Assembly (NCBI GenBank): GCA_015178975.1
Contig: WHVD01000204.1
Span: 1 to 64,000 of the forward strand
DNA: 64,000 nucleotides
Direction: 5' to 3'
Source of the DNA: Hysterangium stoloniferum
Lineage: Eukaryota; Basidiomycota; Agaricomycetes; Hysterangiales; Hysterangiaceae
The translations under genes were made by a program, and so were the position numbers. Below the pieces are notes generated by a model. That model did not search any database. It was not told the DNA's origin and worked only from the letters and a program-made list of their open reading frames with translations. Shown here piece by piece: positions 4,085 through 64,000 of the stretch. Position 1 is the first letter of the stretch; every line of letters starts with the position of its first letter.

Positions 4085-4105
4085 CTCACTGCCTTCGACC
4101 CATAG

Positions 4106-30618: not shown

Positions 30619-31338
30619 TGTTACGACCGTGTCGCAACCCTATCGGTCCCGAGGTTATCGCCACTTGTCAATGACAAGTCACCCTCTCGGAAACCATTGG
30701 CCCCGAAGCTGACGAATGTTTTCACGAAGATCAAACTCCGTTTACGCCCACGTCAAAACAACTTGTATTGTCTGGTCAAACTTTGATACGTCCCCTTTAT
30801 TATGTTGATCCGTTCAATCTTATGTTTCGCATATGTCTATCTATATTTGTAGTCCTTGAACTATTTCCTTTTATCGTAATCCCGCTCTCGGTTATCATCG
30901 GCCTCCAAACTAATCATAAACTTCCCGTTCCTAGTCAAGTTTATTGTTAATACCGTGTTCCGCCCTTCTCCCCATTAGTATTTTCCAGACGCCTGTTACT
31001 TGTATATGAACCCGCTATAGTTGTAGTTACTAGGCAATCAGAATATCGACTCAGAATACCCTCATATGCCTGTATCAGTCTCATACTAAGAATCCCCCCA
31101 TCCGCCTCTGCGTGCGCTCGCCCACTCCCGGCCCCAACCCCTTGGCCCGACGCTCGACTTGTCCTTCAATTCCGATCGGTATCACACCGAAAGGTACTCA
31201 CTAGGATTAGTCTTCACCTGCCCGAAATTTAAGGACATCCTACGGATATTTGCGAGGGCGCAGCACATAAGCTGAAGCCAAGTCCTTCCGATCGGTCCCT
31301 GTCGGCCACCGACATTAGTCAGTTTCCAGTTCTTAACA
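30619..31338 (+). repeat. 5' LTR of chromovirus 1
   Basis: Starts TGTTACGACCGTGTCGC and ends CCAGTTCTTAACA; 720 bp. Both ends match the 3' copy exactly in position. Confidence 0.95.
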
Positions 31339-31375: not shown

Positions 31376-32674
31376 ATGCCTCCGAGAAGAAATGCCAAGC
31401 CTAGCGGTGAAGCAGAATCTTCCACTCTCAAGTCTCCTTTTCTCTATACAGCCCGAGCTACTCAGAGAACTCTGCTACCAGAAACCTCCAAAGAATCTCG
31501 CTTTGTGGAGATTACCGGTGATGCTGAAGAAGTAACTGAAGCAACCGATCCCGAAGCAACTGAGGAGATTAACAATCAACCAGTTTCGGAACACGAACCC
31601 GAGGATGGCGACCAACCTCAGGCTAGTGGCTCCAAGAAGTCCGAAAAGAAAAAACCGGCTCTCGACCCTGAAGAAACATGGGAATTGTTTTCAGGTACTC
31701 TAGGATCCCTTAACGAATTCCTTAAAAGCAATATCAAGGAAAAGGAACCTGGGCAAACCCGAGTCAACAAACCCAAGCCATTCACTGGCTCAAACCCGAA
31801 GAAATTGCCGACATTTCTTATGCAATGTCGATTCAACTTTCGGGACCGCCCGGCTGCATTCACAACGGATGACCGAAAGGTAAACTTCGCACTCTCATAC
31901 CTTAAGGATTCCGCAGCAGCCTGGTTTGAACCCGCATTCTCTGGCCTCACCTCCGAAGACCCTGATTGGCTTCACGATTGGGATGCCTTTGTCGAGGAAC
32001 TCGAAACTAACTTTGGTCCCTACGACCAAACCGGCAATGCCGAAACTGCGCTTTCTAATCTCAAAATGAAAGACACTCAGCGCATCACCGATTACATCAT
32101 CCAGTTCAACAACCTCGCTGCGCATTGCGACTGGGGCGATTCGGCCCTCCACTACCAGTTTTACTCCGGCCTTCCGTCTCGCCTCAAAGATGAAGTCTCC
32201 AAAGGAGAGACTGGCAAGCCAAAGACCCTCTCTCTCATGCGTCTGAAAGCCCAAAACGCAGACGCCCGATACTGGGAACGATGTTTGGAAATTAGTCGTG
32301 AAAACCCTTTGGACAAAAAATCATCGGACAATAAGAATGCCAACAAGTCTGGTAATCAAAACACCAACAACAATGGCAACTCGACCTCTGATAAGAAGTC
32401 CGAAAACAAAGGGGCTAACGACAAAAAAGGCAAGGGAAAACAGTCGAATAAGTCTCAAGACAAAGACAAACCCGACTTAACTGGCAAACTCGGCTCCGAT
32501 GGCAAGCTCCTACCACAGGAAAAGCAACGCCGAATGGACAACAACCTTTGTTTGTTGTGCGCAGATCCCGGACACCGAGTCGCTGCTTGCCCAAAAGCCA
32601 CAAAAGCCCGATCGGCTAATACGGCCACGACCTCACAACCTGCCAAGCCGGCTGTCGAGTCGAAAAAAGATTAA
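31376..32674 (+). mobile_element. Chromovirus 1 gag
   Basis: An intact-looking 432-residue open stretch starting MPPRRNAKPSG about 38 bp after the 5' LTR. An acidic N-terminal third is followed by a Ty3-type capsid segment (FLMQCRFNFRDRP, DWDAFVEELETNFGP, about residues 140-220), an Asn/Lys-rich linker and a CCHC zinc knuckle CLLCADPGHRVAAC (about residue 383). It forms the particle shell and binds the RNA. Confidence 0.85.
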
Positions 32675-32691
32675 GCAACTCTCTGGATTCC

Positions 32692-35600
32692 GTGCATTTG
32701 GAGAGTTGCGTTGAATCTCCTCGCACACCGGAAAATTGTCATCTTAACGCATCCGCCTTGTATGATCCTAATTCCTTGTTCATAAATCTTACTTCGGAAC
32801 CTCTCGGGACCCTCACATTTCGAGCTCTCATAGATTCAGGTTCAACCCATTGTTTTATAGATACAAGTTTTTCCAGAAAAAATCAGTTAAAAACCTACGC
32901 AATAGATCCGATTCCGCTCCGACTCTTTGATGGTACCTCAAACTCCGTAATCTCGCAAGCCTGCGAACTCCGACTTCAGTTCCCGTGTGGAACCTTTCAG
33001 ACAGTTACGTTTTTTGTAACACATTTGGACCTGAGCTGCTCCGTGGTTCTAGGACATAACTGGCTCACCTGCTACAATCCGTTGATTGATTGGGTATTGG
33101 GCAGTATCCATTTCCGAACCCCGTCAGTGCCCATTACGACTGGTCCATTTCTGCCTGTCTCAGCAAATATGGCCTCTACAGCACCTCCGGCCCCCGTGGC
33201 AAATCCGAGCTCTCCGCCGCCCGTCTCTCTAATAAATGCCGCAGCTTTTATGAGAGCCATCAAGTTGGACGGCTCCCGAGCATTTACAGTCAATCTTAAA
33301 GTTGACGAAGTCACCGGTCGCTTTGCATCCCCGGTGACCGAACCAATCGCAGATTTAGAAGGTGTTCCCGAAAAATACCATGAATTTGCAGATGTCTTCA
33401 GTAAACAAAAAGCCGATCGACTCGCCCCTCACAGGCCTTACGATTTGAAAATTGATATTGAAGATGGTTCACATCCGCCCCTAGGCCCGGTTTATCCTCT
33501 CTCGCAGTCCGAACTATCGGCTATCCGAGATTTCTTGGATGAACATTTGGCTATAGGTTTTATCCGACCCTCAAAGTCTCCTTATGGAGCCCCTGTCCTA
33601 TTCGTTCGGAAAAAGGACGGTTCCCTTCGACTTTGCGTTGATTTTCAAGGACTAAATGCAATCACTCGAAAAGACAAGTACCCATTACCATTAATCTCCG
33701 ATTTACTCGATGCCCCTCGGAAGGCCCGAATCTATACAAAGATAGATCTCAAGCATGCCTATCATTTGGTTCGGATCGCCGAAGGTGACGAATGGAAAAC
33801 GGCTTTTCGCACTCGCTATGGCTCCTTTGAATGGTAGTAATGCCTTTCGGCCTCACCAACGCTCCGTCGGTCTTTCAACGTTTTATCAACGATGTCTTTT
33901 CCGACCTCCTCAACGTCTTTGTCATTGTGTATTTAGACGACATCCTCATATTCTCCGAAGATCCTACACTTCATGACGGACACGTTCGTGAAGTTCTCCA
34001 AAGACTCCGAAAACATGGTCTTTTTGCAAATGGTAAAAAATGTTCTTTTGATGTCGACACAGTTGAATATTTATGATGGGACCTGACGGTCTCCGCATGG
34101 ACGACTCTAAAATTCAAGTCATTCAAGATTGGCCGGAACCCCGGAAGGTTAAGGATATTCAATCCTTTCTAGGCTTCACCAATTTTTATCGTCATTTCAT
34201 TCACAACTACTCAAAAATTACCGTCCCGCTCACCCATCTTACTCGTAAAGACGCCCCGTGGAATTTCTCCGAAGAATGCCGATCGGCATTCCAGGAATTG
34301 AAAAGTGCATTTACATCCGCCCCTATTTTGTCGCACTGGAAGCCCGACGTTCAACTCATCGTGGAAACTGATGCTTCGGACTATGCGCTTGCTGCGATAT
34401 TGTCCATTCTGGACACCGATGGTGAAGTACACCTAGTAGCTTTTCTGTCTCGCACATTTTCGGCGCCCGAACTCAACTATGACGTTCACAATAAGGAATT
34501 ACTCGCAATATTTGAAGCTTTCAAGACATGGCGACATTATTTGGAAGGATCGGCCCATCCGGTAGATGTTATTACAGACCACAAAAATTTAGTTTACTTT
34601 TCAACCACAAAACTTCTCACCCGTCGACAAGCTCGATGGTCCGAATACCTCTCTGCTTTCAAAATGGTAATTCGTTTCCGCCCCGGCCACCTTGGTGGAA
34701 AACCCGATGCTATGACTAGACGATGGGACGTCTATCCTAAAGAGGGGAGTAGCGACTACGCCACAGTTAACCTGCATAATTTCAAACCTATGTTTTCATC
34801 GGAACAACTGTCCGCGTCTATCCGAGCCACTTACCTCATTCATCCAGTCTTGCGAAGTGTTATCCTTATGGATACCGAAAAGTTACATCAAGATATACTA
34901 TCGGCAATTCCATTAGACCCAGTCACCAAAGCACACCTCGATAACCCGTCCGACCCCGATCAACCCCGATGGTCATTAGACTCACAAGGTTTCATTAGAT
35001 TTGACAATCGCATTTATGTCCCGGATTCCGACACCCTTCGGCTGCGAATCCTACAACATAAGCACGACCACCCAATCTCGGGACATTTCGGCCTCAATAA
35101 GACCCTCTCACTCATTAGAAGAGAATATACATGGCCCGGCATCCGAGATTTTGTTAAGCACTATTGTAAATCCTGTACTACGTGTTTACGCTCTAAATCA
35201 CAGCGACACAAACCATATGGCCTACTCAAACAATTACCGATACCGGAAAAACCTTGGAACTCGATTTCTATGGATTTTATCGAGCACCTACCGGCATCCG
35301 AAGTCACACAGCAATCCTAGTTGTTGTGGATCGGCTCTCAAAGCAAAGTATTTTCATTCCAACATATGACACAATAACATCTGTACAGTTAGCTGAACTA
35401 TTCGTCACCCACGTATTCTCCAAGCATGGCGTTCCATCGCATGTCACATCCGATCGCGGATCCGAGTTTGTTTCTCACTTCTTTAGGTCACTCGGAAAAG
35501 CACTAGACATGAAGCTACATTTCACTTCAGGCTATCACCCGGAAGGCGATGGACAAACCGAACGCATGAATCAGACCTTGGAACAATACATCCGTGTCTA

Positions 35601-36351
35601 CTGCAACTATCAACAAGACAATTGGAAATCACTACTACCGCTAGCTGAATTCACATATAACAACGCACCAAATGTCACTACCGGCATTTCGCCTTTCTTC
35701 GCAAATAAAGGCTACAACCCCAACATCGCAATCCACCCGGAATGCGATCTCGCATCCGCCCATGCTCAAGACTTCGTTACCAACCTTGACGAGCTACATC
35801 AAGAACTTCGTAAAACTATCGCAATGGCCCAAGAACGATACCAACGGTCTGCGGATAAAAACCGACTTCCGCCTCCTGATTTCAAGATCGGAGACCGAGT
35901 ATTCGTTAAAGCCGAGTTTTTCCAAACTACTAGACCTTCTAAGAAGCTCTCTGAAAAATATTTAGGTCCTTTTGAAGTTATAGCACAAGCCGGCACGCTT
36001 TCATGGACGCTTCGGCTCCCCGACAACATGCGTGCAGTGCACCCGGTATTTCATGTATCTATGTTAGAACCTTGTGTTCCTAACAGTATACCGGATCACA
36101 TACAACCACCACCTCCACCCGTGATTATTGATGGGGAACCCGAATTCGAGATATCAGAAATCCTAGACTCAAAAATCGACAATTGCCGACGCTCATGCAA
36201 ATTACTTTATTTGGTCAAATGGGCTGGCAATGAAGGTACAGATGAAGAAACTTCATGGATCCTAGCTACAGAGCTCGGTAATGCCTCGGAAATCGTTTTA
36301 GGGTTTCACCAAGCTTATCCGAACAAACCCGGTCCTCTCAATTCTTTATAA
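32692..36351 (+). mobile_element. Chromovirus 1 pol region with chromodomain
   Basis: Order of hallmarks: protease ALIDSGSTHCFID (about 32.83 kb); reverse transcriptase [31 protein letters not shown] and the catalytic box [11 protein letters not shown] (about 33.94 kb); RNase H ETDASDYALAAIL (about 34.37 kb); the integrase HHCC zinc segment (HKHDHPISGHFG... CKSCTTC, about 35.06-35.18 kb); the integrase core with MDFIEHLP, TSDRGSEFVSHFF and HPEGDGQTERMNQ; and a C-terminal chromodomain (LYLVKWAGNEGTDEETSW, about 36.2 kb). The chromodomain places it in the chromovirus branch, whose integrases target heterochromatin. A few breaks. Confidence 0.9.
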
Positions 36352-36447: not shown

Positions 36448-37369
36448 CTAAGTTTCTCCCTCTACAACTTCTCCCTCCTCTCCGGCCTCTGAACCCTCCT
36501 CCGCACCGACAGCCACCGATACCACACCACCGACGTTCTCCGAAACCCCAATTTCATGCCCACCGCAACTCGAGACTTCCAAATACTGCTCAAGTTGACC
36601 ACCGAGAGACTCGATAACACTGGTCTGTTTCTCCAGCCCGACGCCCAAGAGTCGCAATTGCTCAGTTATGAGCCCTTGTTGTCGCAACGTCTCATATCGG
36701 TACCGACTCGTCTCCGAGAAGTAGGTCCACATGAGGCGGTTTTGCTCTTATAGAGCATCGGCCTGTCGCTCCTGGAATGAACCATCGGCCCCCAGGAAAA
36801 CACACCCAAGCTTCTGATCAGCGCACTCTTGACAAGTGCGGCCCCGACCATTGGTCCGGGGATGACAGGTTCGACCCCGTTTCGTGCACCGATTGCACTT
36901 GGGGTCATTTTCAGGCCCCGCCTTGGGGGCCTGCTTTTGTTTCTATAGAAAAAATTATTTAGGAAGTCTTATTTTAAGGAAATCGAACCCACCTTGGGGC
37001 TCGACGGCCCCGGTGCATCCTCCTCGTCCTCCTCTCCCTCTTCATCATCAGACTCCGAAGGCGTTGCAGCCTTGCGCTAACAAATATTGTCAGTAAGGTT
37101 CGCAAAAGACACCAGAGCCGACTTACCTTTCCCTCCCGCTTCTTTTTCGCCGCCTCCTCTCGCGCCCGATTGGCCTCCTGCTGCTTGTTCTTTGCAAGCA
37201 CTGCTTCCCAGTGCTTGCACGCGGCCTCTTCTGCCGCCTGTTTCTTCTCCTCGGCCTCGATGGCCACCAACTCCTCCTTCTCCTTCCGCTCCTCTTCACG
37301 CGCCTTTTTCTTCTGCTCAAGTATACGCCGACGCTCCTTCGTGTTCGCCGTACCACTCGGCACCGACAT
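36448..37369 (-). mobile_element. Antisense gene-like unit of chromovirus 1: coiled coil plus Zn2Cys6 cluster
   Basis: On the strand opposite to gag-pol, three separate open stretches are bounded by splice-like signals. First, from the ATG at 37369, an Ala/Glu/Lys-rich coiled coil (REEERKEKEELVAIEAEEKK) ends before GTAAGT. Second, an acidic stretch (SESDDEEGEEDEED, about 37.0-37.07 kb) is followed by GTGGGT. Third, a Zn2Cys6 binuclear cluster with spacing C-x2-C-x6-C-x10-C-x2-C-x6-C lies at 36802-36897, followed by a helical tail. Zn2Cys6 clusters are fungal DNA-binding domains (Gal4 type). A TATA element sits about 110 bp upstream. The same layout is found in chromovirus 2. Confidence 0.75.
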
Positions 37370-37472
37370 GGGTGCAACTGTTAACCTAACCGGGAAGGGC
37401 TTTGACCCCGAGCCTATGGTCATGGTGGTTAAAGGAAGAGAAGTAAAATTTCAAGCGCCAGGAACCCTCAAA

Positions 37473-37483
37473 CTTTTATATGC
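37473..37483 (-). promoter_or_regulatory. TATA box of the antisense unit in chromovirus 1
   Basis: On the minus strand GCATATAAAAG, about 105 bp upstream of the antisense ATG at 37369 and about 110 bp inside from the 3' LTR. It points away from the LTR, opposite to gag-pol transcription. Confidence 0.5.
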
Positions 37484-37595
37484 AAATTTTTGCCAAGTCA
37501 CATGATGTTTTGACACACCCAGCCGTACCGACAAGTTTTACGTACGGGATCTAGATTTTCGGCCTCCTTGGGATTTCGGCCAAAAGGGGAGATAC

Positions 37596-38315
37596 TGTTA
37601 CGACCGTGTTGCAACCCTATCGGTCCCGAGGTTATCGCCACTTGTCAACGACAAGTCACCCTCTCGGAAACCATTGGCCCCGAAGCTGACGAATGTTTTC
37701 GTGAAGATCAAACTCCGTTTACGCCCACGTCAAAACAACTCGTATTGTCTGGTCAAACTTTGATACGTCCCCTTTATTATGTTGATCCGTTCAATCTTAT
37801 GTTTCGCATATGTCTATCTATATTTGTAGTCCTTGAACTATTTCCTTTTATCGTAATCCCGCTCTCGGTTATCATCGGCCTCCGAACTAATCATAAACTT
37901 CCCGTTCCTAGTCAAGTTTATTGTTAATACCGTGTTCCGCCCTTCTCCCCATTAGTATTTTCCAGACGCCTGTTACTTGTATATGAACCCGCTATAGTTG
38001 TAGTTACTAGGCAATCAGAATATCGACTCAGAATACCCTCATACGCCTGTATCAGTCTCATACTAAGAATCCCCCCATCCACCTTCGCGTGCGCTCGCCC
38101 ACTCCTGGCCCCGACCCCTTGGCCCGACGCTCGACTTGTCCTTCGATTCCGATCGGTATCACGCCGAAAGGTACTCACTAGGATTAGTCTTCGCCCACCC
38201 GAAATTTAAGGACATCCTATGGATATTTGCGAGGGCACAGCACATAAGCTGAAGCCAAGTCCTTCCGATCGGTCCCTGTCGGCCACCGACATTAGTCAGT
38301 TTCCAGTTCTTAACA
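37596..38315 (+). repeat. 3' LTR of chromovirus 1
   Basis: Starts TGTTACGACCGTGTTGC, ends CCAGTTCTTAACA; 720 bp. It is preceded by the polypurine primer AAAAGGGGAGATAC. Confidence 0.95.
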
Positions 38316-39698: not shown

Positions 39699-39850
39699 TC
39701 TGGTGAAAATTAATTTAATTTGATGGTGTGACCAAACAAACGCGATGTGAACGACGCGAATATGTGTTACAAATCATGTGGGTGCTGTCGCCTAATGTAA
39801 TATTCCCACATCAGAGTGGGTATTTAGGCTCACCCGCCATTCTCTATTGT
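39699..39850 (+). repeat. Repeat R, copy 2
   Basis: Starts TGGTGAAAATTAATTTAAT and continues GGTGTGACCAAACAAACGCG; inverted relative to the copy at 30232-30392. It lies immediately beside the host gene fragment and runs towards the minisatellite. Confidence 0.7.
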
Positions 39851-39901
39851 AGCATATATGATGACATAATATATGACATAATATTCCCGTGCTAGTGCGC
39901 G

Positions 39902-40735
39902 TGTGACACCCATCGCGCCTTGTGACTGTCACGCGCCTTTTTGTTACTGTCGCGCGCCCTTGTGACTGTCGCGCGCCCTTGTGACTGTCGCGCGCCCTTG
40001 TGACTGTCGCGCGCCCTTGTGACTGTCGCGCGCCCTTGTGACTGTCGCGCGCCCTTGTGACTGTCGCGCGCCCTTGTGACTGTCGCGCGCCCTTGTGACT
40101 GTCGCGCGCCCTTGTGACTGTCGCGCGCCCTTGTGACTGTCGCGCGCCCTTGTGACTGTCGCGCGCCCTTGTGACTGTCGCGCGCCTTGTGACTGTCGCG
40201 CGCCCTTGTGACTGTCGCGCGCCCTTGTGACTGTCGCGCGCCCTTGTGACTGTCGCGCGCCCTTGTGACTGTCGCGCGCCCTTGTGACTGTCGCGCGCCC
40301 TTGTGACTGTCGCGCGCCCTTGTGACTGTCGCGCGCCCTTGTGACTGTCGCGCGCCCTTGTGACTGTCGCGCGCCCTTGTGACGCGCGCCTTGTGACTGT
40401 CGCGCGCCCTTGTGACTGTCGCGCGCCTTGTGACTGTCGCGCGCCCTTGTGACTGTCGCGCGCCCTTGTGACTGTCGCGCGCCCTTGTGACTGTCGCGCG
40501 CCTTGTGACTGTCGCGCGCCCTTGTGACTGTCGCGCGCCCTTGTGACTGTCGCGCGCCCTTGTGACTGTCGCGCACCCTTGTGACTGTCGCGCACCCTTG
40601 TGACTGTCGCGCACCCTTGTGACTGTCGCGCACCCTTGTGACTGTCGCGCACCCTTGTGACTGTCGCGCACCCTTGTGACAACGGTCGCGCGTTGTGACG
40701 ACCTGTCACTCATTGTGACGACCAGTCACTTGTTG
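39902..40735. repeat. CpG-dense 19-bp minisatellite, about 40 units
   Basis: Tandem TGTGACTGTCGCGCGCCCT, very uniform, with a few units one base shorter (CGCGCCTTG) and a block of six variant units (GCGCACCC) at the right end. Flanking sequence contains degenerate GTGAC/GTCAC-rich units. The 19-bp period and lack of stops leave all three minus-strand frames open for 200-300 codons, giving a repeat such as RDSHKGARQSQGRATVT; this is an artefact of the period, not a gene. Confidence 0.95.
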
Positions 40736-41015
40736 TGATGAATATTCCCCTGCATTGTGTAATAAGCGCCAGATGGCCGGTTTGAAGATATATAGTTAAA
40801 AAAGAATAAAAGTAGAAATTTCATAGTCTACTCAGATTTTTAGATAAAAATACAAAGTAATTTGCATAATTTCGAGATAAATCAAAGGAATACTGTACAA
40901 TGTTACCATAGCGATATAAGTACATTTTTAGAGCCTTTGTTAAGAATCTCGTTTGGGGAAATTGCAAAAAATAGAGAAAACCTTTAAAAATACATAACAG
41001 GCAGGCAACAGGGGA
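40736..41015. other. AT-rich stretch between minisatellite and DIRS-like element
   Basis: No gene. It may include the left end of the DIRS/Ngaro-like element; no left terminal repeat was identified. Confidence 0.4.
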
Positions 41016-42103: not shown

Positions 42104-43374
42104 TGTGAGGTATCAGCATTATCTCATAATGTTCTCTTAATTTTCTTTGAATTACTTAATATTTTCTCGAATTTTTATTGTATTTTTATTATGTTTATTG
42201 TGAAAAATAGGCCTTATTCCTTTTAACTTCACATAAATAATAGCGTATATGGACTCATATTATGCTATTATTGCTTAATTAATTTATTATAATTTTTAAG
42301 TAATTATTTATATTTTATTTACTTAGTTATTGCTTGTTGGCATCTTGCTGCAGCTTTGTTTGCGCATTTTTAAAGTCACGTGATCTATTAGATAAGCCCC
42401 CGGTGGCGGGATGTCACACAAGTCACAGATGTGACTACCCGAGTCATTAATTGATTCCACCGACTCATCGTTTGCTTCCGTCCCGGGACCGCGGCCTTGA
42501 ACCCTCATGTTCAAGCAAGAGGTTAGAACCCTTGTCTCAGAGAGGGGAATCATGTGATAAATAAAGGGTAAATAATGAGTAAAATATGAGGTCATTATGA
42601 TCTAACTAGTGACTTCATAAACTAAATAATTAGCTAATCATTTAGTTATCAAAATGTATATAAGGAGGGCCAAGTTTCCAATAAAATCATCTATCTCACA
42701 CACATTTTACTGCACAGCTCAGAAGCTTATCTAATAATCCTAAGGACAATAATAGCCTTAGTCTGATACACTAACTGCAAGCACCTACACTTGCAGCATC
42801 TTGAATCTTTGTCAGCAACTCTTGGACTTAGCTAATCATCTAAGTTCCCCAGCCTCACAGCTACCCTTTAGGCTTATTAATTAGATAATAAACCTAATAA
42901 GTATCTAAGTATCCTTACTGAAATCCCTGCCAATACTAGATTACTCAAGGCCCAGCCCTAAGTTTATTGAATTAATCAAGTACAAGCACTCAGATAATCC
43001 AATACAAATTATTTTCTCTATTAATAAATTATTTAACACCTTGTTAAATAACTATTAATAGTTACAAATAAGCATACAAGAATCCGAAGCTCTTATATCA
43101 AGTCTCTGCCAAGTTACTGTGCATATATTCAGCTTCCAGCCCCTATTCTCAAGGAATACAGTAGTTCTTTTATTTGCTAAAAGAGTCATATATTGTTCTA
43201 TTGAACCTTTCAATAATCAAAATAAGCATTGATTTGAGTTGTTTAAGCTTAATAGCACAGCTCATTAATCTATCAGTATTTAAATTACTGGACCTTTGCT
43301 TATTTTATTGTTGAAGCTCTGTGACACTATAGCATATATTGAGCTATCTAAGAGAATCCCCTGAATACATTACA
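42104..43374 (+). mobile_element. Solo LTR S2 (1.3-kb family)
   Basis: Starts TGTGAGGTATCAGC, ends GAATACATTACA, 1271 bp; perfect 5-bp duplication GACAG (42099-42103 and 43375-43379). It has a single, unexpanded GTCAC/GTGAC motif where S1, S4 and S5 have tandem repeats. Confidence 0.95.
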
Positions 43375-44906
43375 GACAGGGTTCTGGCATTGAGCTCTGT
43401 GTCGTGTACAATGCCCGGGGGGCCTGTGAGCAGCGGGGGTCAGGCCACCCATCCCATGCTTGCTCTCTTTGCGGTGACACCACGCATCCTGCACGGACTT
43501 ATCCCACTTGGCTTCAGCTTATAGGCTGTGCCCTTGCTAGATCGTGTTTTCCAATTTCAGATGGATGGATGTCCACTCGTTACCCTACTCTCATTTATGA
43601 TATGATTCATGGATCACCAATTGGTAATCATCCTCCCCTTACATCCACCTTTATTCTGCCTAATCTTCCTTCTGCTGGCCTGGATCCTGAATTTCTTTTG
43701 CAACATTTGCAGGAGGAGATTTACCTTGGCCGGATGTTGGGTCCTTTTTTCCATTGAGGCTGCACATACAATCTTTGGAGGACATTTTCACACTGCACCC
43801 CTTGGTCTGATTGCCAAGCCTGGGTCAACAAATCTGTGGATGATTCATCATCTTAGCAAGAAAGATCCTTCGGGTTATTCAACTAACTCATGGATTAATG
43901 CAGTGGATTGGCCTACTAAGTGGTTCACTGCAGCAGCAGTTGCCCAATATGTGAGCTCTTCTTATCTTCTTATTGGATTTATTTGTGCGATTTCTCATTG
44001 GAGCCATTATGGCTATGTTGAGGTTGAGCCAATATGGGCATGTTGATGTTGAGCCTATATCGGCACATTGATGTTGCGGCACATTCTTCTGGGCTGGTTG
44101 AGCTGATTTGGCATGTTGCTTGACATTGGTCTTCATGGTGGCATTGCCCTTACACATGATACATTATACTCACTAGTTTCAGGTTTCTACGTGTCCCCAG
44201 GCACAGAAGGTGCTGCCCTGGATGTTAAGGATGCTTTTCGCAACTCGCCTATTCTTCCCACCCACAAATGTTACATTGCTTATATGTTCAATGATGTAAT
44301 TTATGTTGACCATTGTATGCCATTCGGTCTCACTTCTGCTACTGGTATTCAGGGCAAGGTTGCAGATGCCACTTGTGACTTGCTCCTGCACCATTTTCTG
44401 GCCTTTGTTGTGAAGTGGGTGGACGATTTCGCTCTCTTTAGGGAGCCCTCATACTCCTTTTCCCATTCAAATGGCACATCCTATGTTTTTCAACACTCAC
44501 TCGCTGACATTCAGTCTTACACCCAATCACTGGGTATTCCTTTCCATGATATCCAATCTAAAGGTCAGGACTTTGCATCAACTGTCACTTATGCTGGCTT
44601 TGTATGGGATTTGCAACACTGCACTGTTTCTCTCCCTGAGAAGAAATGCCTTAAGCATCACACCAAACTCGAAAAAGTTTTAGTTGCTACTGCCACAACA
44701 GTTACTAGGCCACAAGTGATCTCCCTCCATGGTTCATTACAGCATCTTACCTTCATTCTCACAGCTGGCCATTCATATCTCGTCACGTTAGCCTCCTTTA
44801 TTTCTCACTTCCCAAATAACTTTTCCCGCCATCACGTCTCTCCATCTCTAATTGTTGATTTACACTGGTGGCGTGATGCACTGGCATGTCCAGCCCCAAC
44901 ACGTTC
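43375..44906 (+). mobile_element. DIRS-like reverse transcriptase region
   Basis: Contains the upstream reverse-transcriptase part (PLGLIAKPGSTNLWMIHHLSKK, about 43.8 kb) and then the core: LDVKDAFRNSPI, DHCMPFGLTSATG and the catalytic box KWVDDFALF at about 44.42 kb. The VDD box with PFGL spacing fits DIRS-order enzymes. Interrupted at its 3' side by solo LTR S3. Confidence 0.8.
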
Positions 44907-46887
44907 TGTGATGTATCAGCATCATCTCATTATATTCTCTTAATTTTCTGTGGATTATTTAATATTCTTTCGAATTTTTATTGTATTTTTTTACTATGTT
45001 TATTGTGAAAAATAGGCCTTATTCCTTTTAACTTCGCATAAATAATAGCATATATGGACTCATATTATGCTATTATTACTTAATTAATTTATTATAATTT
45101 TTAACTAATTATTTATATTTTATTTACTTAGTTATTGTTTCTTGACACTTGCTTTACCCCTTGAGCTCTGGAAGCGCGGGAACACATTATGTCATCATTC
45201 GTGCCCGGCACTTCAAATTTGGGATTGAGGGAATGATTTGTCAGCAGGTGACAATTACAACAGGTGACTTATTAGATAAGCCTCCAGTGTCAGGATGTCA
45301 CTTAAGTCATGGATGTGACTACCCGAGTCATTATTAGATTCCGCCAACTCATCGTTTGCTTCCATCCCGGGACCGCGGCCTTGAACCTTCATGTTCAAGC
45401 AAGAGGTTGGAACCCTTGTCTCAGAGAGGGGAATCATGTGATAAACAAAGGGTAAATAATGAGTAGAATATGAGGTCATTATGATCTAACTAGTGACCTC
45501 ATAAACTAAATAATTAGCTAATCATTTAGTTATCAAAATGTATATAAGGAGGGCCAACTTTCCAATAAAATCAATCTATCACACATATTTTACAGTACAG
45601 CACAGAAGCTTACCTCATCATCCTAAGGACAATAACAGCCTTAGTCTGATACACTCACTGCAAGCACCTACTGTGAAGGGTATGCATATATCATGATTGG
45701 ACTGTGGAATAATACATATATTATAGTATTTTATTATTTAGTTCTTACTCTTTTTCCCTAACTCTCTATATCTTTCGAGCATACCTGTATTTCTTAGTTC
45801 GAAGTCTTGTGTATATCTATGGGCGCTCTCAGCGCTAAACGAGACATCTTTTTACCCAGCAGACACCACCTCGTAAACGACCCAGACGTCGAATAGCGAG
45901 AGGTGTCAAGGGTAACATCTCAGCTACCTATAAGGGTAGCGTTTTCTAGTCTCCTAACATACTTTGGACTCGAACCGCGAAGGTCGAGTTCCACTCTAAG
46001 GTCTTTGCACTCGTCAACGCTACAGTCGACTCGCGCTATTATCTCTTTACTTCAGATATTCAACTTCTCGTTGATTATCTATTTACATTTAGCTACGAGT
46101 TGCACCGTAAAGGTCAACTCTTCGTTCTCTCATTTTAGCCGTCAAGAGCAACTGTACAGTTGTTCTTGTGACGTGTAGCGTGTCTCCTTGCTAGTACTGT
46201 CAGTCTAGCAATCTACGGTATTGTACTGAACGGTCAATACTTTCTAATAGTAGTTGAATAAACACTATTCTTCGTATATTGAGCGGTAAGAATCTAACGA
46301 CTCTTCACACCTACACTTGCAGCATCTTGAATCTTTGTCAGCAACTCTTGAACTTAGCTAATCATCTAAGTTCCCCCAGCCTCACAGCTACCCCTTAGGC
46401 TTATTAATTACATAATAAACCTAATAAGTATCCTTACTGAAATCCCTGCCACTACTAGATTACTCAAGGCCCAGCCCTAAGTTTATTGAATTAATCAAGT
46501 ACAAGCACTCAGATAATCCAATACATATTATTTTCTCTATTAATAAATTATTTAACACCTTGTTAAATAACTATTAATAGTTACAAATAAGCATACAAGA
46601 ATCCGAAGCTCTTATATCAAGTCTCTGCCAAGTTACTGTGCATATATTCAGCTTCTAGCCCCTATTCTCAAGGAATAGTTCTATTATTGCTAAAAGAGTT
46701 ATACACAGTTCTATTGAACCTTTCAATAATCAAAATAAGCATTGATTTGAGTTGTTTAAGCTTAATAGCGCAGCTCATTATTCTATCAGTATTTAAATTA
46801 CTGGACCTTTGCTTGTTTTATTGTTGAAGCTCTGTGACACTATAGCATATATCGAGCTATCTAAGAGAATCCCCTGAATACATTACA
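44907..46887 (+). mobile_element. Solo LTR S3 (1.3-kb family), carrying a nested solo LTR
   Basis: Starts TGTGATGTATCAGC, ends GAATACATTACA; perfect 5-bp duplication CGTTC (44902-44906 and 46888-46892). Without the nested LTR it would be about 1338 bp. It inserted after S3's family spread, and the nested LTR at 45672-46309 came later still. Confidence 0.95.
45672..46309 (+). mobile_element. Nested solo LTR (TGTGAAGG family)
   Basis: Starts TGTGAAGGGTATGC, ends CGACTCTTCACA, 638 bp; perfect 5-bp duplication CCTAC (45667-45671 and 46310-46314) inside S3. It is related to the LTR of the Ty3 element at 20.8 kb. Confidence 0.95.
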
Positions 46888-47012
46888 CGTTCCCTCCTAC
46901 CTTGTGTTATCCTAGACTTGGAGATTTATGTTGACGCCTCTATGTCTTGGGGCATTGGCCTTGTTGTTGGCTCCAAATGGGCCACTTGGCATTTGCGGGA
47001 AGGCTGGGCTTC
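46888..47012 (+). mobile_element. DIRS-like RNase H segment, first part
   Basis: A 125-bp island between S3 and S4 encoding EIYVDASMSWGIGLVVGSKW, the first acidic strand of a DIRS-type RNase H. Confidence 0.7.
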
Positions 47013-48334
47013 TGTAATGTATTCAGGGGATTCTCTTAGATAGCTCAATATATGCTATAGTGTCACAGAGCTTCAACAATAAAACAAGCAAAGGTCCAGT
47101 AATTTAAATACTGATAGATTAATGAGCTGCGCTATGAAGCTTAAACAACTCAAATCAATGCTTATTTTGATTATTGAAAGGTTCAATAGAACTGTGTATG
47201 ACTCTTTTAGCAAATACAAGAACTATTCCTTGAGAATAGGGGCTGGAAGCTGAATATATGCGCAGTAACTTGGCAGAGACTTGATATAAGAGCTTCGGAT
47301 TCTTGTATGCTTATTTGTAACTATTAATAGTTATTTAACAAGGTGTTAAATAATTTATTAATAGAGAAAATAAATTGTATTGGATTATCTGAGTGCTTGT
47401 ACTTGATTAATTCAATAAACTTAGGGCTGGGCCTTGAGTAATCTAGTATTGGCAGGGATTTCAGTAAGGATACTTATATACTTATTAGGTTTATTATCTA
47501 ATTAATAAGCCTAAAGGGTAGCTGTGAGGCTGGGGAACTTAGATGATTAGCTAAGTCCAAGAGTTGCTGACAAAGATTCAAGATGCTGCAAGTGTAGGTG
47601 CTTGCAGTGAGTGTATCAGACTAAGGCTATTATTGTCCTTAGGATGATTAAATAAGCTGGTGCTGTGCTGCAAATGTGTGTGAGATAAGATGATTTTATT
47701 GGAAACTTAGCCCTCCTTATATACATTTTGATAACTCAATGATTAGCTAACTATTTAGTTTATGAGGTCATTAGTGAGATCATAATGACCTCATATTCTA
47801 CTCATTATTTACCCTTTGTTTAACATGTGATTCCCTTCTCTGAGACAAGGGTTCTAACCTCTTGCTTGAACATGAAGGTTCAAGGCCGCGGTCCCGGGAC
47901 GGGAGCAAACGACGAGTCGGCGGAACCTAATAATGACTCGGGTAGTCACGTTCGTGACTTGTGTGACTCGGGTAGTCACATTCGTGACTTGTGTGACTCG
48001 GGTGGTCACATTCGTGACCTTTGTGACATCCCGACACTGGAGGCTTATGTAATAAGTCACATGACTCCAAAAATGCGCAAACTAGGCTGCACAAGGTGCC
48101 GAAAGGTAATAACTAAGTAAATAAAATATAAATAATTAGTTAAAAATTATAATAAATTAACTAAGATATAATAGCATAATATGAGTTCATATATGCTATT
48201 ATTATGCGAAGTTAAAAGGAATAGAGCCTATATTTCACAATAAAAATATAATAAAAATACAATAAATTCGAAAGAATATTAAATAATCCACAGAAAATTA
48301 AGAGGATATTATGATATGATGCTGATACATCACA
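47013..48334 (-). mobile_element. Solo LTR S4 (1.3-kb family), inverted
   Basis: On the plus strand starts TGTAATGTATTCAGG and ends TGATACATCACA, 1322 bp; perfect 5-bp duplication GCTTC (47008-47012 and 48335-48339). It carries a triplicated ~30-bp unit (about 47935-48020) based on GACTCGGGTAGTCACATTCG. Confidence 0.95.
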
Positions 48335-49244
48335 GCTTCACATGGGCGGGATATTGGTTGGGCCGAATGTGTGGCCCTTGAAATGGCCCTCCACTGGCTG
48401 GATCAACTTTCCTACTCGAACACTGAATTTATTATTCATGGGGATAACACTGGTGTTATCGGGGCCTTCCACTGGGGTCGCTCATGCAATTTACAATGCA
48501 GTGATTCCGTCAGGTGGATGACGGCTTCCCTTCTCCCAGCGAATAATACAGTTTCCCCTCTGTATGTAACCTCTACTAACAACTTGGCAGACCCAATATC
48601 CCGTGGCTTTTGCGGTTTACCAGTTGAGACATTATATCCTCATGTTCAGCTCCCGCCAGAGCTAGCCCCTTACCTTTTCTATGTCTAGCTCCATCACTGA
48701 GGCACGTGTACATGCCCGTGCTGCAACATCTGATATGGAGGGAGTTGGGGCCACTTCCTCCTTGCCGCACTCAGTTGTTCACTTCAGACGGCCCCGACGT
48801 TCAACAACTCCCTCCTTGGGTATCTCTCCTTCAATTCTTCAACCTCATGTCCTTGCCAAAAACCGGTTTTTGGCTTGGCTCACGCCTTTTGCACTCACAC
48901 ATCACACACTTCTCTCCACACATTTTCCTCCAGCTCTGATTGCTCAGTGGCGATTAGTCATGTTGTCATCTTTAACAGATGATTCCCTGACCGGCTATGC
49001 TGCTGGCTTGCTTCATTTCACATGTTTTTGTGATGATGCTGACATCTCTGAAATGGACCGAATGCCTGCCTCTGAAGATCTTCTATCTCTTTTTGTTGCA
49101 TCCCAGGGGGCTGGCCTTGTTGGGGGTGGTACCGTCAAAAAGTGGCTGCAAGGACTCCAATTCTGGCATGTCCTCAATGGGGCCCCATGGTTGGGAGGTT
49201 CCTTATTGTCCCAAACCATCAAAGGTGTCACACGTCTTGCCCCA
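48335..49244 (+). mobile_element. DIRS-like RNase H second part and recombinase N-terminal region
   Basis: Encodes EFIIHGDNTGVIGAFHWGRS and NNLADPISRG, typical DIRS RNase H motifs, then from about 48.68 kb an open stretch with a helical region (ENLTAYAAGLLHF-like, DDSLTGYAAGLLHFTCFCDD) that resembles the core-binding domain of tyrosine recombinases. Interrupted by S5. Confidence 0.7.
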
Positions 49245-50561
49245 TGTAATGTATTCAGGGGATTCTCTTAGATAGCTCAATATATGCTATAGTGTCACAG
49301 AGCTTCAACAACAAAACAAGCAAAGGTCCAGTAATTTAAATACTGATAGATTAATGAGCTGCGCTATTAAGCTTAAACAACTCAAATCAATGCTTATTTT
49401 TATTATTGAAAGGTTCAATAGAACTGTGTATGACTCTTTTAGCAAATAAAAGAACTATTCCTTGAGAATAGGGGCTGGAAGCTGAATATATGCGCAGTAA
49501 CTTGGCAGAAACTTGATATAAGAGCTTCGGATTCTTGTATGCTTATTTGTAACTATTAATAGTTATTTAACAAGGTGTTAAATAATTTATTAATAGAGAA
49601 AATAATTTGTATTGGATTATCTGAGTGCTTGTACTTGATTAATTCAATAAACTTAGGGCTGGGCCTTGAGTAATCTAGTATTGGCAGGGATTTCAGTAAG
49701 GATACTTAGATACTTATTAGGTTTATTATCTAATTAATAAGCCTAAAGGGTAGCTGTGAGGCTGGGGAACTTAGATGATTAGCTAAGTCCAAGAGTTGCT
49801 GACAAAGATTCAAGATGCTGCAAGTGTAGGTGCTTGCAGTTAGTGTATCAGACTAAGGCTATTATTGTCCTTAGGATGATTAGATAAGCTTCTGAGCTGT
49901 GCAGTAAAATGTGAGTGTGATAAGATGATTTTATTGGAAAGTTGGCCCTCCTTATATACATTTTGATAACTCAATGATTAGCTAATTATTTAGTTTATGA
50001 GGTCATTATTTAGATCATAATGACCTCATATTCTACTCATTATTTACCCTTTATTTATCATGTGATTCCCTTCTCTGAGACAAGGGTTCTAAGCTTTGGC
50101 TTGAACATGAAGGTTCAAGGCCGCGGTCCCGGGGACGGAAGCAAACAATGAGTCCGCGGGATCAAATAATGACTCGGGTAGTCACATCCGTGACCTATGT
50201 GACATCCCGACACTGGAGTGTGACTTGCGTGACATCCCGACACTGGAGTGTGACCTGCGTGACATCCCGACACCGGCGGCTTATCTAATAAGTCAGATGA
50301 CTTCAAAAATGCACAAACTAGGCTGCAGCAAGGTAATAACTAAGTAAATAAAATATAAATAATTAGTTAAAAATTATAATAAATTAACTAAGATATAATA
50401 GCATAATATGAGTTCATATATGCTATTATTATGCGAAGTTAAAAGGAATAGAGCCTATATTTCACAATAAAAATATAATAAAAATACAATAAATTCGAGA
50501 AAATATTAATAAATTCAAAGAAAATTAAGAGAAAATTATGAGATAAAGCTGATACCTCACA
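49245..50561 (-). mobile_element. Solo LTR S5 (1.3-kb family), inverted
   Basis: On the plus strand starts TGTAATGTATTCAGG and ends TGATACCTCACA, 1317 bp. Flanks CCCCA (49240-49244) and CACCA (50562-50566) differ at one base. It carries a triplicated ~30-bp unit (about 50190-50280) based on GTGACATCCCGACACTGGA. Confidence 0.9.
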
Positions 50562-59428: not shown

Positions 59429-60645
59429 TGTTAGGATACACACACAGGCCGGGTCTCCGGAGAGACCTGCGGGATATCCGGTAGGACTTGGCTTCAGCTT
59501 ATAGGCTGCGCCCTCGCTAGATCGTGTTGTCCAATTTCAAACAGGCGGACGGGAATCCCGGGGAGTCTGGGTGGGGTTCATGAGTCATAGGTCAGAGGTC
59601 GGAGGTCATGTGTCGTGAGTTGAGAGAGATAGATGCATCAGAGCCCGTGGGCCCCGACTAGTGTGAGCGGTCTGATAAGAGTAGGGTTTTAGAGTGGAAA
59701 ATATATTAGATTACTGGGGGGAGTCTAAGCTAATTTTCTGACTGGATTGTATGTACAACATCTGCCAGTTTATATAGACCGTGGAATACATGACATACCA
59801 AATCCAGTAATAATGAGACGAAATGAGCAAAACGTAAAACAGGAATAATAAACACCAATTTTGGTGTTAGGAATGGGACAGAATGGAGCGGAGTCCAAAT
59901 CGTGACAAAGCATAACCCATAATGGGAAATGGAGCGGGAGCGGAGTCCTAAATCGTGACAGGTCATTTGACTAAAACAGGAATGGGGCTCGATTAGAGCG
60001 GTGATGGGATTCTAAGTGGGGACCGGTGACTGATGCATGGGATGAAGACAGAGATAGACAGAGACGGAGTCCGGGGGAAGTGTAAGGGCTACCTCTAACA
60101 GGACCTGTGGTACTCACACTAGGCTAGCAGAGGGATATCCAAAGTATATTAAGTACCTAATATATACAGGAGACTAAACTACTCACCTAGCAGAGGGATA
60201 TCCAAAGAGAAAAGGATAAGGGGGCGGCCTCTGCTAGGCGATCCGAAACTAGGGGGTGGCTAAAAATAGAATGACAGCTCACCCCAACGGTCACTAACTA
60301 CCTACTCTACCCTGGAGATATTCCTAGGGAGTGTTAGAAGTCATGGAAAAATACGAGAAGATTACAGGAAACAGTACTAATAACCCTCTTGGGGCTAGAT
60401 TACTCAGAGGAACTTATTGGGGTTTTAGCAATATACATATATATCAACCATATTGAAGGCACAAATTGAACGTCCCCTTACAGGAAGTCCGGTTACTGAT
60501 ATGTGTCATAATGAGGTCGAACGTAACGAGTCTTGACGTAATGGAGTCCAGGCGGGAAATCCTATAAACAGATGATTGGTGCTTGTAGTGTGTGGGGGCA
60601 TACGGGTTAGTGCCCGGAGTCCGGCAGGATTGTCCGGTCGTAACA
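59429..60645 (-). repeat. 3' LTR of chromovirus 2, with nested insertion
   Basis: On the plus strand starts TGTTAGGATACAC, ends CCGGTCGTAACA. Without the nested 402-bp LTR and one target copy it would be about 810 bp, agreeing with the 819-bp solo copy at 51470. The purine-rich AAAGGGAGGATAC precedes it in element sense. Confidence 0.9.
60081..60482 (-). mobile_element. Nested solo LTR, 402 bp
   Basis: On the plus strand starts TGTAAGGGCTACC and ends GTCCCCTTACA; perfect 5-bp duplication GGAAG (60076-60080 and 60483-60487). Contains a repeated CTAGCAGAGGGATATCC motif. A diverged relative lies at 28876-29176. Confidence 0.95.
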
Positions 60646-60795
60646 GTATCCTCCCTTTATGCCGAAGTCCCAAAGAGGCTCTAGACCTAGATAAGGTTCT
60701 TGTCAGCTACGCACATGTGTCAAAAGTCATGTCAGTTACATGTATGTGTCAAAGAGTCATGTGATCTGGAAGGTAAGGTTCAAACACGACGAGCC

Positions 60796-60806
60796 TATAT
60801 ATAAAT
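60796..60806 (+). promoter_or_regulatory. TATA box of the antisense unit in chromovirus 2
   Basis: TATATATAAAT on the plus strand, about 50-60 bp upstream of the ATG at 60856, pointing away from the LTR and opposite to gag-pol. Confidence 0.55.
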
Positions 60807-60855: not shown

Positions 60856-61860
60856 ATGGGACCAAAACCAACACCTAAAAGAGCGATGCCAACCGCGGGG
60901 CCTTCCATGGGCTCTCCGTATCAGGCGCCTTGGAGTGCAGCCCAATTGCTGGCGCAGTGAGAAGAGCAGTGCCAACTTCACAAAGAAGCAGAGAGGGAGG
61001 CGAGGGAGGCCGAGGAGGCCCTGGACAAAGAGTACCAGGCAGCATTGGCTGCAGAGGAAGAGGCCACAAAGGAGAGGGAGTGTGAAGCGGAGGAGGCTGT
61101 GCAGGTGGCCACGGAGAATGCCTGGGTGGCTGCGGAAAGAGCCCGGTTGGCCGCGGACAGGGCCGCAATTGTTGCGGGAAAGGTAAGTCCCAATATTCAA
61201 CTTGTCGAATTTTGCTGACTTGTATTTTTCAGCGCAAGGCGACGGAGGTAGAGTCGGAGTCCAAGGGGGAGCCAGGGAGCCCCCAGAAGGTAAGCCTCAG
61301 GTCCATGGGATAACCGTAGAAAACTGACACCATATCAACAGAAGGCAAGGAAGGCGGCACCAGTCCATCTTCCGACGTGGAACAAGCCGCGGTGTTCTGG
61401 TTGTAACGACCAGAACACGGAATGCAACCGAAAGTCCGGCTGGGGTCCGGGGTGCTATCAATGTGTGCACCCCAAGGTGAGGTGCTCGCTTGTTCACGAG
61501 CAGGCCACGGGGTCCAGGGCACGAGATGTAAGCGGGTCGGATGGGTTGTCCAGGTTGGACGAAGTCCTTGGATGGATCGCCGAGGGCATCGAGGCCCAAA
61601 ATGAGTTGCTCCGGAAGAGCAACAAGGTCCACATAGTGGTGGCAAAGGAACTGTGTGGACTCCACGAGGAATTTTGGAAGTTCCTGGCGGAGTATGGTGG
61701 AGTATGGCGGCTATGTATATGAGGAGCCGCAGGTTGGGAGTTCCGAGGATGCCAGATCTGATGAGGACAGGGTTGCCATGGAGGTCGAGGAGCTTCCTGA
61801 GGAGGTAGCTGAGGCGGTGGGAAAAAAACATAGCCCCATAGAAATAGATGAATAAAGTAG
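60856..61860 (+). mobile_element. Antisense gene-like unit of chromovirus 2: coiled coil plus Zn2Cys6 cluster
   Basis: On the strand opposite to gag-pol, in separate open stretches bounded by splice-like signals: an N-terminal Pro/Ala-rich start, an Ala/Glu-rich coiled coil (EAEREAREAEEALDKEY, ENAWVAAERARLAADRAA) ending before GTAAGT at about 61181; an acidic stretch (TEVESESKGEPGSPQK); a Zn2Cys6 cluster with spacing C-x2-C-x6-C-x9-C-x2-C-x6-C at about 61392-61485; and a helical tail (EVLGWIAEGIEAQNELLRK, LCGLHEEFWKFLAEY). Same order as the unit in chromovirus 1, with low sequence identity outside the cysteines. Likely a nuclear DNA-binding protein by family. It carries at least one break. 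Confidence 0.75.
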
Positions 61861-62060: not shown

Positions 62061-63545
62061 TCAGAGAGACGATAATGGTCCAGGTTTGAGCGGGTAAGCT
62101 GTATGAAAGTCAGTAACGATTTCCGTGGCATTACCAAGTTCCGTGGCCAAAATCCATGAGGTCTCTTCATCGGTGCCCTCGTAACCCGCCCACTTGACCA
62201 AGTAAAGCAGTTTACAAGTGCGTTGATGCTTATCAATTTTTGAGTCTAAAATCTGTGATATTTCAAACTTGGGTTCTCCGTCAATGATAACCGGAGGGGG
62301 CGGAGATTGCACGCGATCTGGGATAGTGTTAGCAGTACAAGGTTCTAGCATAGAAACATGGAATACCAGGTGTACCGCGCGCATGCTATCCGGAAGCCAT
62401 AGAGTCCAAGGGACTGAACCTACTTGTGCAATAATTTCAAATGGACCTAAATATTTTTCAGCAAGCTTTTTTGATGGACGGGTAGTCCTCAAGAATTGAG
62501 CTTTGACATAAACACAGTCGCCTATCTTGAAGTTGGGTGGCGGGATCCGGTGTTTGTCTGCTGAATGTTGGTATTGCTCTTGGGTGGACGATATTGCAGT
62601 CTGGAGTTCCTCGTGGAGCTCATGGAGGTCCGCGGTGAACTCTTGAGCACGAGCAGAGGTGAGATTTCATTCTGGATGTACTGTAATATTTGGAGTATAT
62701 CCTTTATTTGCAAAGAATGGGGAAACGCCAGTAGTGGCCGAGGGTGCATTGTTGTAAGCAAACTCTGCAAGTGGTAACAAGGATTTCCAATTGTCCTGTT
62801 GGTAATTGCAATATACGCGGAGGTATTGTTCCAAGGTCTGATTGACGTGTTCGGTTTGTCCGTCACCTTCCGGGTGATGTCTGGACGTGAAATGTAAGGT
62901 CATGTCCAAGGATTTTCTGAAGGATCTAAAGAAGTGAAACACGAACTCTGATCCTCTATCGGAAGTCACGTGGGACGGAACTCCGTGCTTGGAGAATATG
63001 TGGATAATGAAAAGTTCCGCTAACTGCACGGACGTAATTGTATCATATGTAGGGATGAATATACCTTGTTTTGAGAATCTGTCAACAACGACTAGAATAG
63101 CAGAAAAGCCTTCGGAATCCGGTAGGTGTTCAATGAAATCCATAGAGATAGAATTCCACGGGTGTTCCGGTACCGGGAGTTGTTTCAAAAGGCCGTATGG
63201 CTTGTGTCGCTGAGATTTCGAGCGGGGACAAGTAGTGCAGGATTTACAATAGTGCTTAATGAATCCACAGAGTCCGGGCCAAGTGTATTCTCTTCTTATT
63301 AATGATAGAGTTTTGTTGTACCCGAAATGTCCTGAGAGTGGATGATCATGTTTGTATTGAAGGATCCTGAGGCAGAGGCCGGTGGAGTCTGGTACATAGA
63401 TACAATCGTCAAGTCTAATGAAACCATGTTGATCAAGAGACCACCGAGGTTGATCGGGGTCCACGGGATTGTCCAGATGAGCTTTAGTAACTGGGTCTAG
63501 CGGAATTGCTGATAGAATATCTTGATGTAACTTCTCGATATCCAT
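62061..63545 (-). mobile_element. Chromovirus 2 integrase and chromodomain
   Basis: The HHCC zinc segment (HKHDHPLSGHFG... CKSCTTC), integrase core (MDFIEHLPDSEG, TSDRGSEFVFHFF, HPEGDGQTEHVNQ) and a C-terminal chromodomain (LYLVKWAGYEGTDEETSW). Very similar in layout and sequence to chromovirus 1. Confidence 0.9.
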
Positions 63546-64000
63546 AATGATAATTCCACGGACAATGGGATTGACGAGGAAAGTTGCACGGACTGATGCG
63601 GTAAGCTGTTGATTCGTGAAAATAGGTTTCAGGTTGTGCGGATTTACCGTTGCATAGTCGTTGCTCCCCTCTTTAGGATAGACATCCCATCATCTAGTTA
63701 AAGTGTCGGGTTTGCCACCGAGATGGCCGGGTCAAAAGTGGATAATCATGTTGAAGGCAGATAGATATTCAGACCAGCAGGCCTGCCGGCAGGTCAAAAG
63801 TTTTGTGGTAGAAAAGTATTCCAGGTTTTTGTGATCTGTTACAATGTCAATAGGAGCTCCTGAACCTTCCAAATAGTGTCACCACGCTTTGAAAGCTGAA
63901 AAGATTGCCAGAAGTTCTTTATCATGAACATCATAGTTAAGCTCTGCTCCGGTAAAAGTCCAGGACAGAAAAGCCACGGGGTGGACTTCTCCGTCAGAGT
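63546..64000 (-). mobile_element. Chromovirus 2 RNase H, running off the edge
   Basis: Minus-strand translation near the edge gives RNase H motifs ([25 protein letters not shown]-like) as in chromovirus 1. Reverse transcriptase and gag lie outside the window. Confidence 0.75.

Follow-up and report, generated by a model that had tools for sequence, protein, structure and literature searches.

Does the zinc-cluster gene-like unit that lies antisense within a fungal chromovirus belong to the retrotransposon itself, and what would its product do there? The question is raised by a 64,000-nucleotide stretch of Hysterangium stoloniferum DNA (the window), in which a preliminary description had noted a unit bounded by splice-like signals and preceded by its own TATA box, between pol and the 3′ LTR of one element and on the opposite strand. 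The element concerned (element 1) is a probable Ty3 chromovirus, with a pol 26-40% identical to the chromodomain lineages of the same genome in unbroken alignments, and Pfam recognised gag, protease, RT, RNase H, integrase, SH3_Tf2-1 and, weakly, Chromo on its gag-pol. The Chromo match (E 0.0014; 19 bits, cut-off 25.1) comes after SH3_Tf2-1, its expected place. In the window copy, pol is broken into several frames.

Between pol and the 3′ LTR of element 1 we found a three-exon gene on the minus strand (37369-36448), antisense to the element and carrying two 50-nt introns (Table 1). The proposed unit is thus borne out, both by this structure and by many genomic copies, and so are the TATA box and splice-like signals, seen as GCATATAAAAG and as GT/AG borders at splice sites that are conserved in the aligned copies. 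In this copy exon 3 is interrupted by an in-frame stop (36750-36748), beyond which the frame continues to a second stop at 36450-36448. A homologous antisense gene, overlooked in the preliminary description, occupies 60856-61855 on the plus strand in a second window element (element 2). The genes of the two families (types 1 and 2) were aligned by hhalign over 75 columns with 41% identity (probability 96.7%, E 4e-10), which marks them as homologous, and their intron positions match, falling between GK and RKA and between SPK or SPQK and K.

Table 1 Features of the two window elements and their antisense genes (window coordinates).
Feature	Position	Strand	Basis or remark
5′ LTR, element 1	30619..31338	+	97.4% identity over 720 bp with 37596-38315
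gag + pol, element 1	31376..36351	+	ORFs; Pfam; gag start 31376, pol end 36351
3′ LTR, element 1	37596..38315	+	LTR pair comparison; about 110 bp from antisense TATA box
Upstream motif TGTCAAAACATCATGTGA, antisense gene 1	37498..37515	-	Form shared with element 2
TATA box GCATATAAAAG, antisense gene 1	37473..37483	-	Sequence
Exon 1, antisense gene 1	37127..37369	-	Predicted charged helix; sequence, selection, composition
Intron 1, antisense gene 1	37077..37126	-	50 nt; GTAAGT..TAG
Exon 2, antisense gene 1	36993..37076	-	Acidic linker; D or E at 11/28 residues
Intron 2, antisense gene 1	36943..36992	-	50 nt; GTGGGT..TAG
Exon 3, antisense gene 1	36448..36942	-	Zn2Cys6-type cluster, C-terminal helix, acidic tail
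C6 cluster CNRCTKRGRTCHPRTNGRGRTCQECADQKLGC, antisense gene 1	36897-36802	-	Spacing C-x2-C-x6-C-x10-C-x2-C-x6-C
3′ LTR, element 2	59429..60645	-	Far end set by match to solo LTR
Upstream motif TGTCAAAGAGTCATGTGA, antisense gene 2	60747..60764	+	Sequence
TATA box CCTATATATAAA, antisense gene 2	60794..60805	+	Sequence
Exon 1, antisense gene 2	60856..61182	+	In-frame stop in window copy
Exon 2, antisense gene 2	61233..61289	+	Flanked by introns of 50 and 52 nt
Exon 3, antisense gene 2	61342..61855	+	Frame break near 61700 in window copy
C6 cluster CSGCNDQNTECNRKSGWGPGCYQCVHPKVRC, antisense gene 2	61393-61485	+	Motif scan
pol 3′ part, element 2	62061..64000	-	pol end at 62061; continues beyond window

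Other repeats were observed in the same window. A probable solo LTR of element-2 type lies at 51468-52288 (89-93% to parts of 60647-59429), a long minisatellite array with a 19-bp unit spans 39807-40737, and a repeat family occurs in several direct and inverted copies (22116-22978, 42172-46887 and 47012-50561). Inverted copies at 4084-8144 and 53567-57359, 93-99% complementary, hold small related ORFs (MPWPPNVLRQFE..), two of which were searched against Pfam and matched no family at E 0.01. The ORFs at 58460-59228 were judged by eye to resemble the terminal part of a Ty1/copia pol, and the one searched had no Pfam match at E 0.01.

The predicted helix of exon 1 contains 73 residues without Pro or Gly, with K, R, E, D, Q and A making up 79% in type 1 and 85% in type 2, a composition that would suit either a coiled coil or a single charged helix. 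For the cluster encoded by exon 3, the Zn2Cys6 spacing is defined as C-x2-C-x6-C-x5..12-C-x2-C-x6..8-C, and both window copies satisfy it. The cluster had been described as textbook, which holds for its spacing; the curated cut-off of Pfam Zn_clus (PF00172) is not reached, the domain alone scoring 11.9-17.7 bits against 21, with 16.3 bits the best score of a natural sequence and 17.7 that of a rearranged string. DUF7682 matched the domain alone more weakly than Zn_clus did, and the spliced protein up to its stop had no match in Pfam. A search of PDB returned eight weak matches, four of them Zn2Cys6 regulators, with Leu3 the best (E 0.32) and Pho7 also weak. We label the cluster Zn2Cys6-type, not a filed member of Zn_clus. 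It is followed by a helix-like stretch, judged by eye; a coiled-coil dimerisation region is common, if not universal, after Zn2Cys6 clusters. A half-swapped zinc cluster was also considered, prompted by a Pfam alignment in which the domain's first half fell on the second half of Zn_clus, and was dropped because three rearranged domains gained 1 to 4 bits only, and because one natural sequence and the Leu3 match align in the normal order.

Both window copies of the antisense gene are broken, which would favour a fortuitous ORF, or the accidental insertion of a host gene or another mobile element into one copy. We give such an accident next to no credence: the C6 motif occurs twice in the window, counting both strands, and in none of 40 sequences of 64 kb simulated from identical dinucleotide steps, the same place, strand and intron layout recur in many copies of two families, and the copies elsewhere in the genome, open frames among them, refute it. 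Related elements, where the preliminary description had proposed to look for the domain, do carry it: within the fungus's own 111-Mb assembly (554 contigs), for exon 3 of type 1, 516 candidates yielded at least 150 scored matches, and for that of type 2, 1264 candidates likewise yielded at least 150. No internal stop was present in 119 of the 150 type-1 matches listed, and several retrieved copies have an open frame from the exon 3 start to a common end.

To place these copies relative to pol, we used for type 1 a sample of 51 integrase rows, chosen by score from 150. A match to the antisense gene among those listed accompanied 26 of the 51, every one antisense, at a distance of 1539-1557 bases downstream of the integrase in 24 cases and of 1580 and 2208 in the remaining two. 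The other 25 were without a match among those listed; six of these loci were inspected, of which four contain a gene that has diverged (subfamily 1b, its DNA ~71% identical to that of element 1) and two (L042 and L045) have lost the zinc exon. The type-2 sample comprised 136 of 150 SH3 rows, 14 being omitted as other-lineage-like by score or length; 79 of the 136 had a match among those listed, all antisense, at 616-636 bases in 78 and at 2984 in one. Ten of the 57 type-2 rows without a listed match were inspected. Six hold an open C6 motif (L067, L069, L071, L072, L073 and L074), some being broken further along; L065 and L068 match over most or all of the gene with the motif lost, L066 matches the gene end only, and L070 has a deletion at the antisense gene. 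Across both types, an open C6 motif is kept in 10 of the 16 inspected loci absent from the listed matches, and clear zinc-exon loss or deletion is seen in three (L042, L045 and L070). By these counts most family copies appear to have the antisense gene.

Selection was assessed on 42 aligned copies (22 of type 1 and 20 of type 2), with the window copies included and L042 and L045, which are without the zinc exon, excluded; dN/dS was obtained by Nei-Gojobori counts, omitting codons with gaps or stops, and its medians are descriptive, as pairs are not independent. The median in the gene frame was 0.198 for type 1 (223 of 231 pairs), 0.218 for type 2 (188 of 190 pairs) and 0.139 for subfamily 1a against 1b (20 pairs; dS 1.7, saturated), and the shifted frames gave 1.37 and 1.00, 1.26 and 1.12, and 1.88 and 1.34, respectively. 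On the gag-pol strand, two frames lie at 1.17-1.97 and one at 0.29-0.32; this last contains stops in 42 of 42 copies and, in our reading, shares wobble sites with the gene frame. Another gag-pol-strand frame is stop-free in 10 of 20 type-2 copies, yet has a dN/dS of 1.26, and the gene frame itself is stop-free in 16 of 22 type-1 and 8 of 20 type-2 copies. Introns are more divergent than exons between 1a and 1b (0.48 and 0.56 versus 0.31) and within type 1 (0.26 versus 0.21), with no clear excess in introns within type 2 (0.16 and 0.20 versus 0.19).

In the same 42 copies, splice donors are GT at 84 of 84 sites and acceptors AG at 83 of 84, the missing one being deleted, and a start ATG stands at the reference position in 17 of 22 type-1 and 20 of 20 type-2 copies, the 1b copies having none there. 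Within this sample, which is biased to conserved exon 3 because copies were picked by exon 3 matches, the six cysteines are kept in 22, 21, 22, 22, 22 and 21 of 22 type-1 copies and in 20 of 20 type-2 copies at all six, and other exon 3 codons agree with the reference in 82% (type 1) and 86% (type 2) on average. The cysteine codons, whose constraint the preliminary description had singled out, are therefore nearly invariant, and the antisense frame, as judged from these alignments, is conserved like coding sequence and under purifying selection in the 42 copies. In no copy are the two introns missing together, and in one most of intron 2 is gone; introns would survive retrotransposition because the reverse-transcribed RNA holds them as reverse complement, and so unspliced. 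It could be argued that the function lies in the antisense RNA and not in a protein, the RNA giving rise, for instance, to double-stranded RNA; the gene lies entirely antisense to the genomic RNA, and roles of this kind have been discussed for the RNA of plant elements (PMC7264820). Purifying selection in one frame across three exons, in-frame length changes and the conserved cysteines make this very improbable. Gene structure, homology of the two families, purifying selection, and conserved splice sites and cysteines are shown here by sequence comparison.

Upstream of the gene, a motif of the form TGTCAAA-N(1-6)-TCA[TC]GTGA is present in 16 of 22 type-1 and 17 of 20 type-2 copies, and a TATA box in the form looked for precedes the gene in 14 of the 22 type-1 copies and in all 20 of type 2. 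Neither is present in the four copies of subfamily 1b, and the upstream motif is also missing in some others; within the window it occurs in two places only, both at antisense genes. The LTRs of types 1 and 2 have only short stretches in common. The antisense protein and the LTR diverge much faster than integrase, which fits a regulator tracking its own LTR, and this co-divergence also fits two regions that are simply under less constraint. CGG/CCG triplets are the usual half-sites of Zn2Cys6 proteins; in eight U3 copies these triplets showed no enrichment, and inverted CGG/CCG pairs are weak at most, the observed count being reached by 0.8 to 29% of shuffles, so that such pairs give only a hint of a putative LTR binding site.

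The reading we favour, with a probability of roughly 55%, is that this is the retrotransposon's own protein-coding antisense gene, whose product would bind DNA and most likely regulate its own LTR and antisense promoter. Transcription antisense to gag-pol would start from the TATA promoter adjoining the 3′ LTR, and the three exons would be spliced. The resulting protein, with its charged helix, acidic linker, Zn2Cys6-type cluster, C-terminal helix and acidic tail, would enter the nucleus and bind DNA via the cluster, probably as a dimer. Its target would be the control region of the element itself, comprising the LTR U3 and the neighbouring antisense promoter, and regulation would be family-specific. 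More tentatively, and at somewhat less than even odds, we suggest that this chromovirus lineage has its own sequence-specific Gal4-like factor, encoded by an antisense gene that contains introns and has a promoter next to U3, and that protein-LTR co-divergence reflects a private feedback switch of each family, acting on sense and antisense promoters.

A DNA-binding-type cluster and a charged helix would also suit a targeting or nuclear-import factor, that is, a protein that associates with the pre-integration complex or chromatin and guides integrase site choice beside the chromodomain; the lineage retaining the gene appears to be equipped with an integrase chromodomain already, and a nuclear-step role has been suggested for plant antisense proteins (PMC7264820). 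We consider such a factor unlikely, as the gene forms its own spliced transcription unit, is not part of gag-pol, and encodes a protein that diverges along with the LTR while integrase is conserved. Another use of DNA binding would be to lift silencing of the element or to alter host genes. The presence of the type-2 gene in at least 150 copies would accord with this, and there is a plant precedent by analogy, VANC of VANDAL elements being a DNA-binding anti-silencing protein borne by a transposable element; we hold an anti-silencing or host-directed role of this kind to be rather improbable.

Regulation of the element's own LTR has evidence against it as well: Zn_clus stays below its Pfam cut-off, CGG/CCG triplets show no enrichment in U3, and the upstream motif is lacking in all four 1b copies and in others. 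Ten of the 51 type-1 integrase rows are long-pol copies, in which the frame at the integrase stays open for 1286 residues or more. Exon 3 is open in seven of these (four from the matches listed, together with L041, L043 and L044) and L046 has a late frame break; the loss of the zinc exon in two of the ten, L042 and L045, counts against the LTR-regulator reading. Three loci (L042, L045 and L070) combine long pol frames with a deleted zinc exon, and their deletions were unseen elsewhere among the matches listed. The deletion junction of L045 had a full-length match only at its own locus among 41 listed matches of 272 candidates, as did that of L070 among 40 of 544; for L042 the match was likewise at its own locus only (40 listed of 154 candidates), a weak result in that the query extends about 10 bases past the junction. 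Among the matches listed there is no sign that gene-less copies have spread, which is not proof that the gene is needed.

To what extent is the gene particular to this lineage? Integrase identity between types 1 and 2 is 77.8-82.4% in unbroken alignments, compared with 35.8-40.1% between these types and three other lineages and ~26-28% to a fourth, and a FastTree phylogeny of 41 rows (without L025, which had short coverage) placed the three lineages apart from types 1 and 2 (support 0.997). The window Ty3 stretch at 24-30.6 kb had no match in the integrase comparison. We found no C6 motif within ~4.4 kb downstream at any of 20 loci of the three other pol lineages, which were taken from high-scoring chromodomain matches and assigned to lineages in our reading. 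In the fourth lineage (D), the motif was present at one of five loci (L076) and absent from four. L076 was rejected as a lineage-D gene, as the type-1 sequence there has an abrupt start at L076:992 and continues into a type-1 LTR, and we read it as a probable truncated type-1 copy, the 3′ end of a type-1 element, abutting a lineage-D chromovirus. Thus, no apparent copy of the gene proper to the four other sampled chromovirus lineages was found. Searches of viral contigs for relatives of pol and of the zinc domain, and of bacterial and archaeal genome contigs for relatives of pol, found none. The genome has 76 Zn_clus rows, and none is found closer than 1.5 kb to any of the 150 listed type-1 copies. 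As a separate observation, one locus of the genome (L075, C115:74200-75300) contains several canonical Zn2Cys6 clusters in succession in one frame, and similar clustered Zn_clus rows occur on C56, C37, C309, C308, C209, C550 and C85.

With a recognisable DNA-binding-type cluster, at least 150 matches per type and gene-less lineages in the same genome, binding to the element's own LTR is testable. These elements also provide a natural example of antisense orientation preserving introns when an element retrotransposes, and they may have supplied fungal gene sets with zinc-cluster-like genes that Pfam leaves unlabelled; many unannotated agaricomycete proteins have a similar make-up and may be such genes. 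If the DNA-binding regulator reading is true, elements may carry their own gene regulator along.

The role of antisense genes in LTR retrotransposons is open, partly as their products resemble few known proteins (PMC7264820). Antisense extra ORFs in this place are already known, and a Zn2Cys6 protein there was not found described in the available parts of the sources that set the context (PMC7264820, PMC8365987, PMC4227169 and PMC5987419). A search at the level of titles and opening abstracts, with subscription literature (including the description of brtn) outside its scope, likewise found no paper reporting that an LTR element encodes a Zn2Cys6 protein in antisense, and the words antisense, opposite and zinc are absent from the main text of a fungal LTR-element survey and of a Laccaria element survey. 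Among plant Ty3 elements, Retand (TRP28), maize Grande (gene23) and RIRE2 have antisense ORFs in the region from pol to the 3′ LTR, and an upstream promoter of its own was shown for gene23 of Grande (PMC11963269; PMC7264820). The gene described here is like these in position, orientation, presence in most family copies and a predicted nuclear or DNA-binding product, and unlike them in host kingdom and protein domain, Retand moreover belonging to a non-chromovirus lineage; the available parts of the same two sources contain no mention of introns in the plant ORFs. Among fungi, the Boty-like elements of Botrytis cinerea are likewise Ty3 elements that possess a chromodomain and, in addition, the antisense gene brtn (PMC8365987; PMC4227169; PMC7264820). 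They differ in their ascomycete host, and the available parts of these sources do not mention a zinc cluster in brtn. With fungal Zn2Cys6 (Gal4-type) factors the protein shares the cysteine spacing given in Table 1, followed by a predicted helix, and the weak matches to Leu3 and Pho7; it differs from them in scoring below the Pfam cut-off and in being encoded antisense inside a retrotransposon. HBZ of HTLV-1 is an antisense accessory gene expressed from the 3′ LTR side, spliced, and encoding a nuclear bZIP regulator with an acidic part. Although HBZ is a bZIP rather than a Zn2Cys6 protein and belongs to an animal retrovirus, so that the likeness is one of analogy with no homology implied, the logic of the antisense gene proposed here would resemble that of HBZ.
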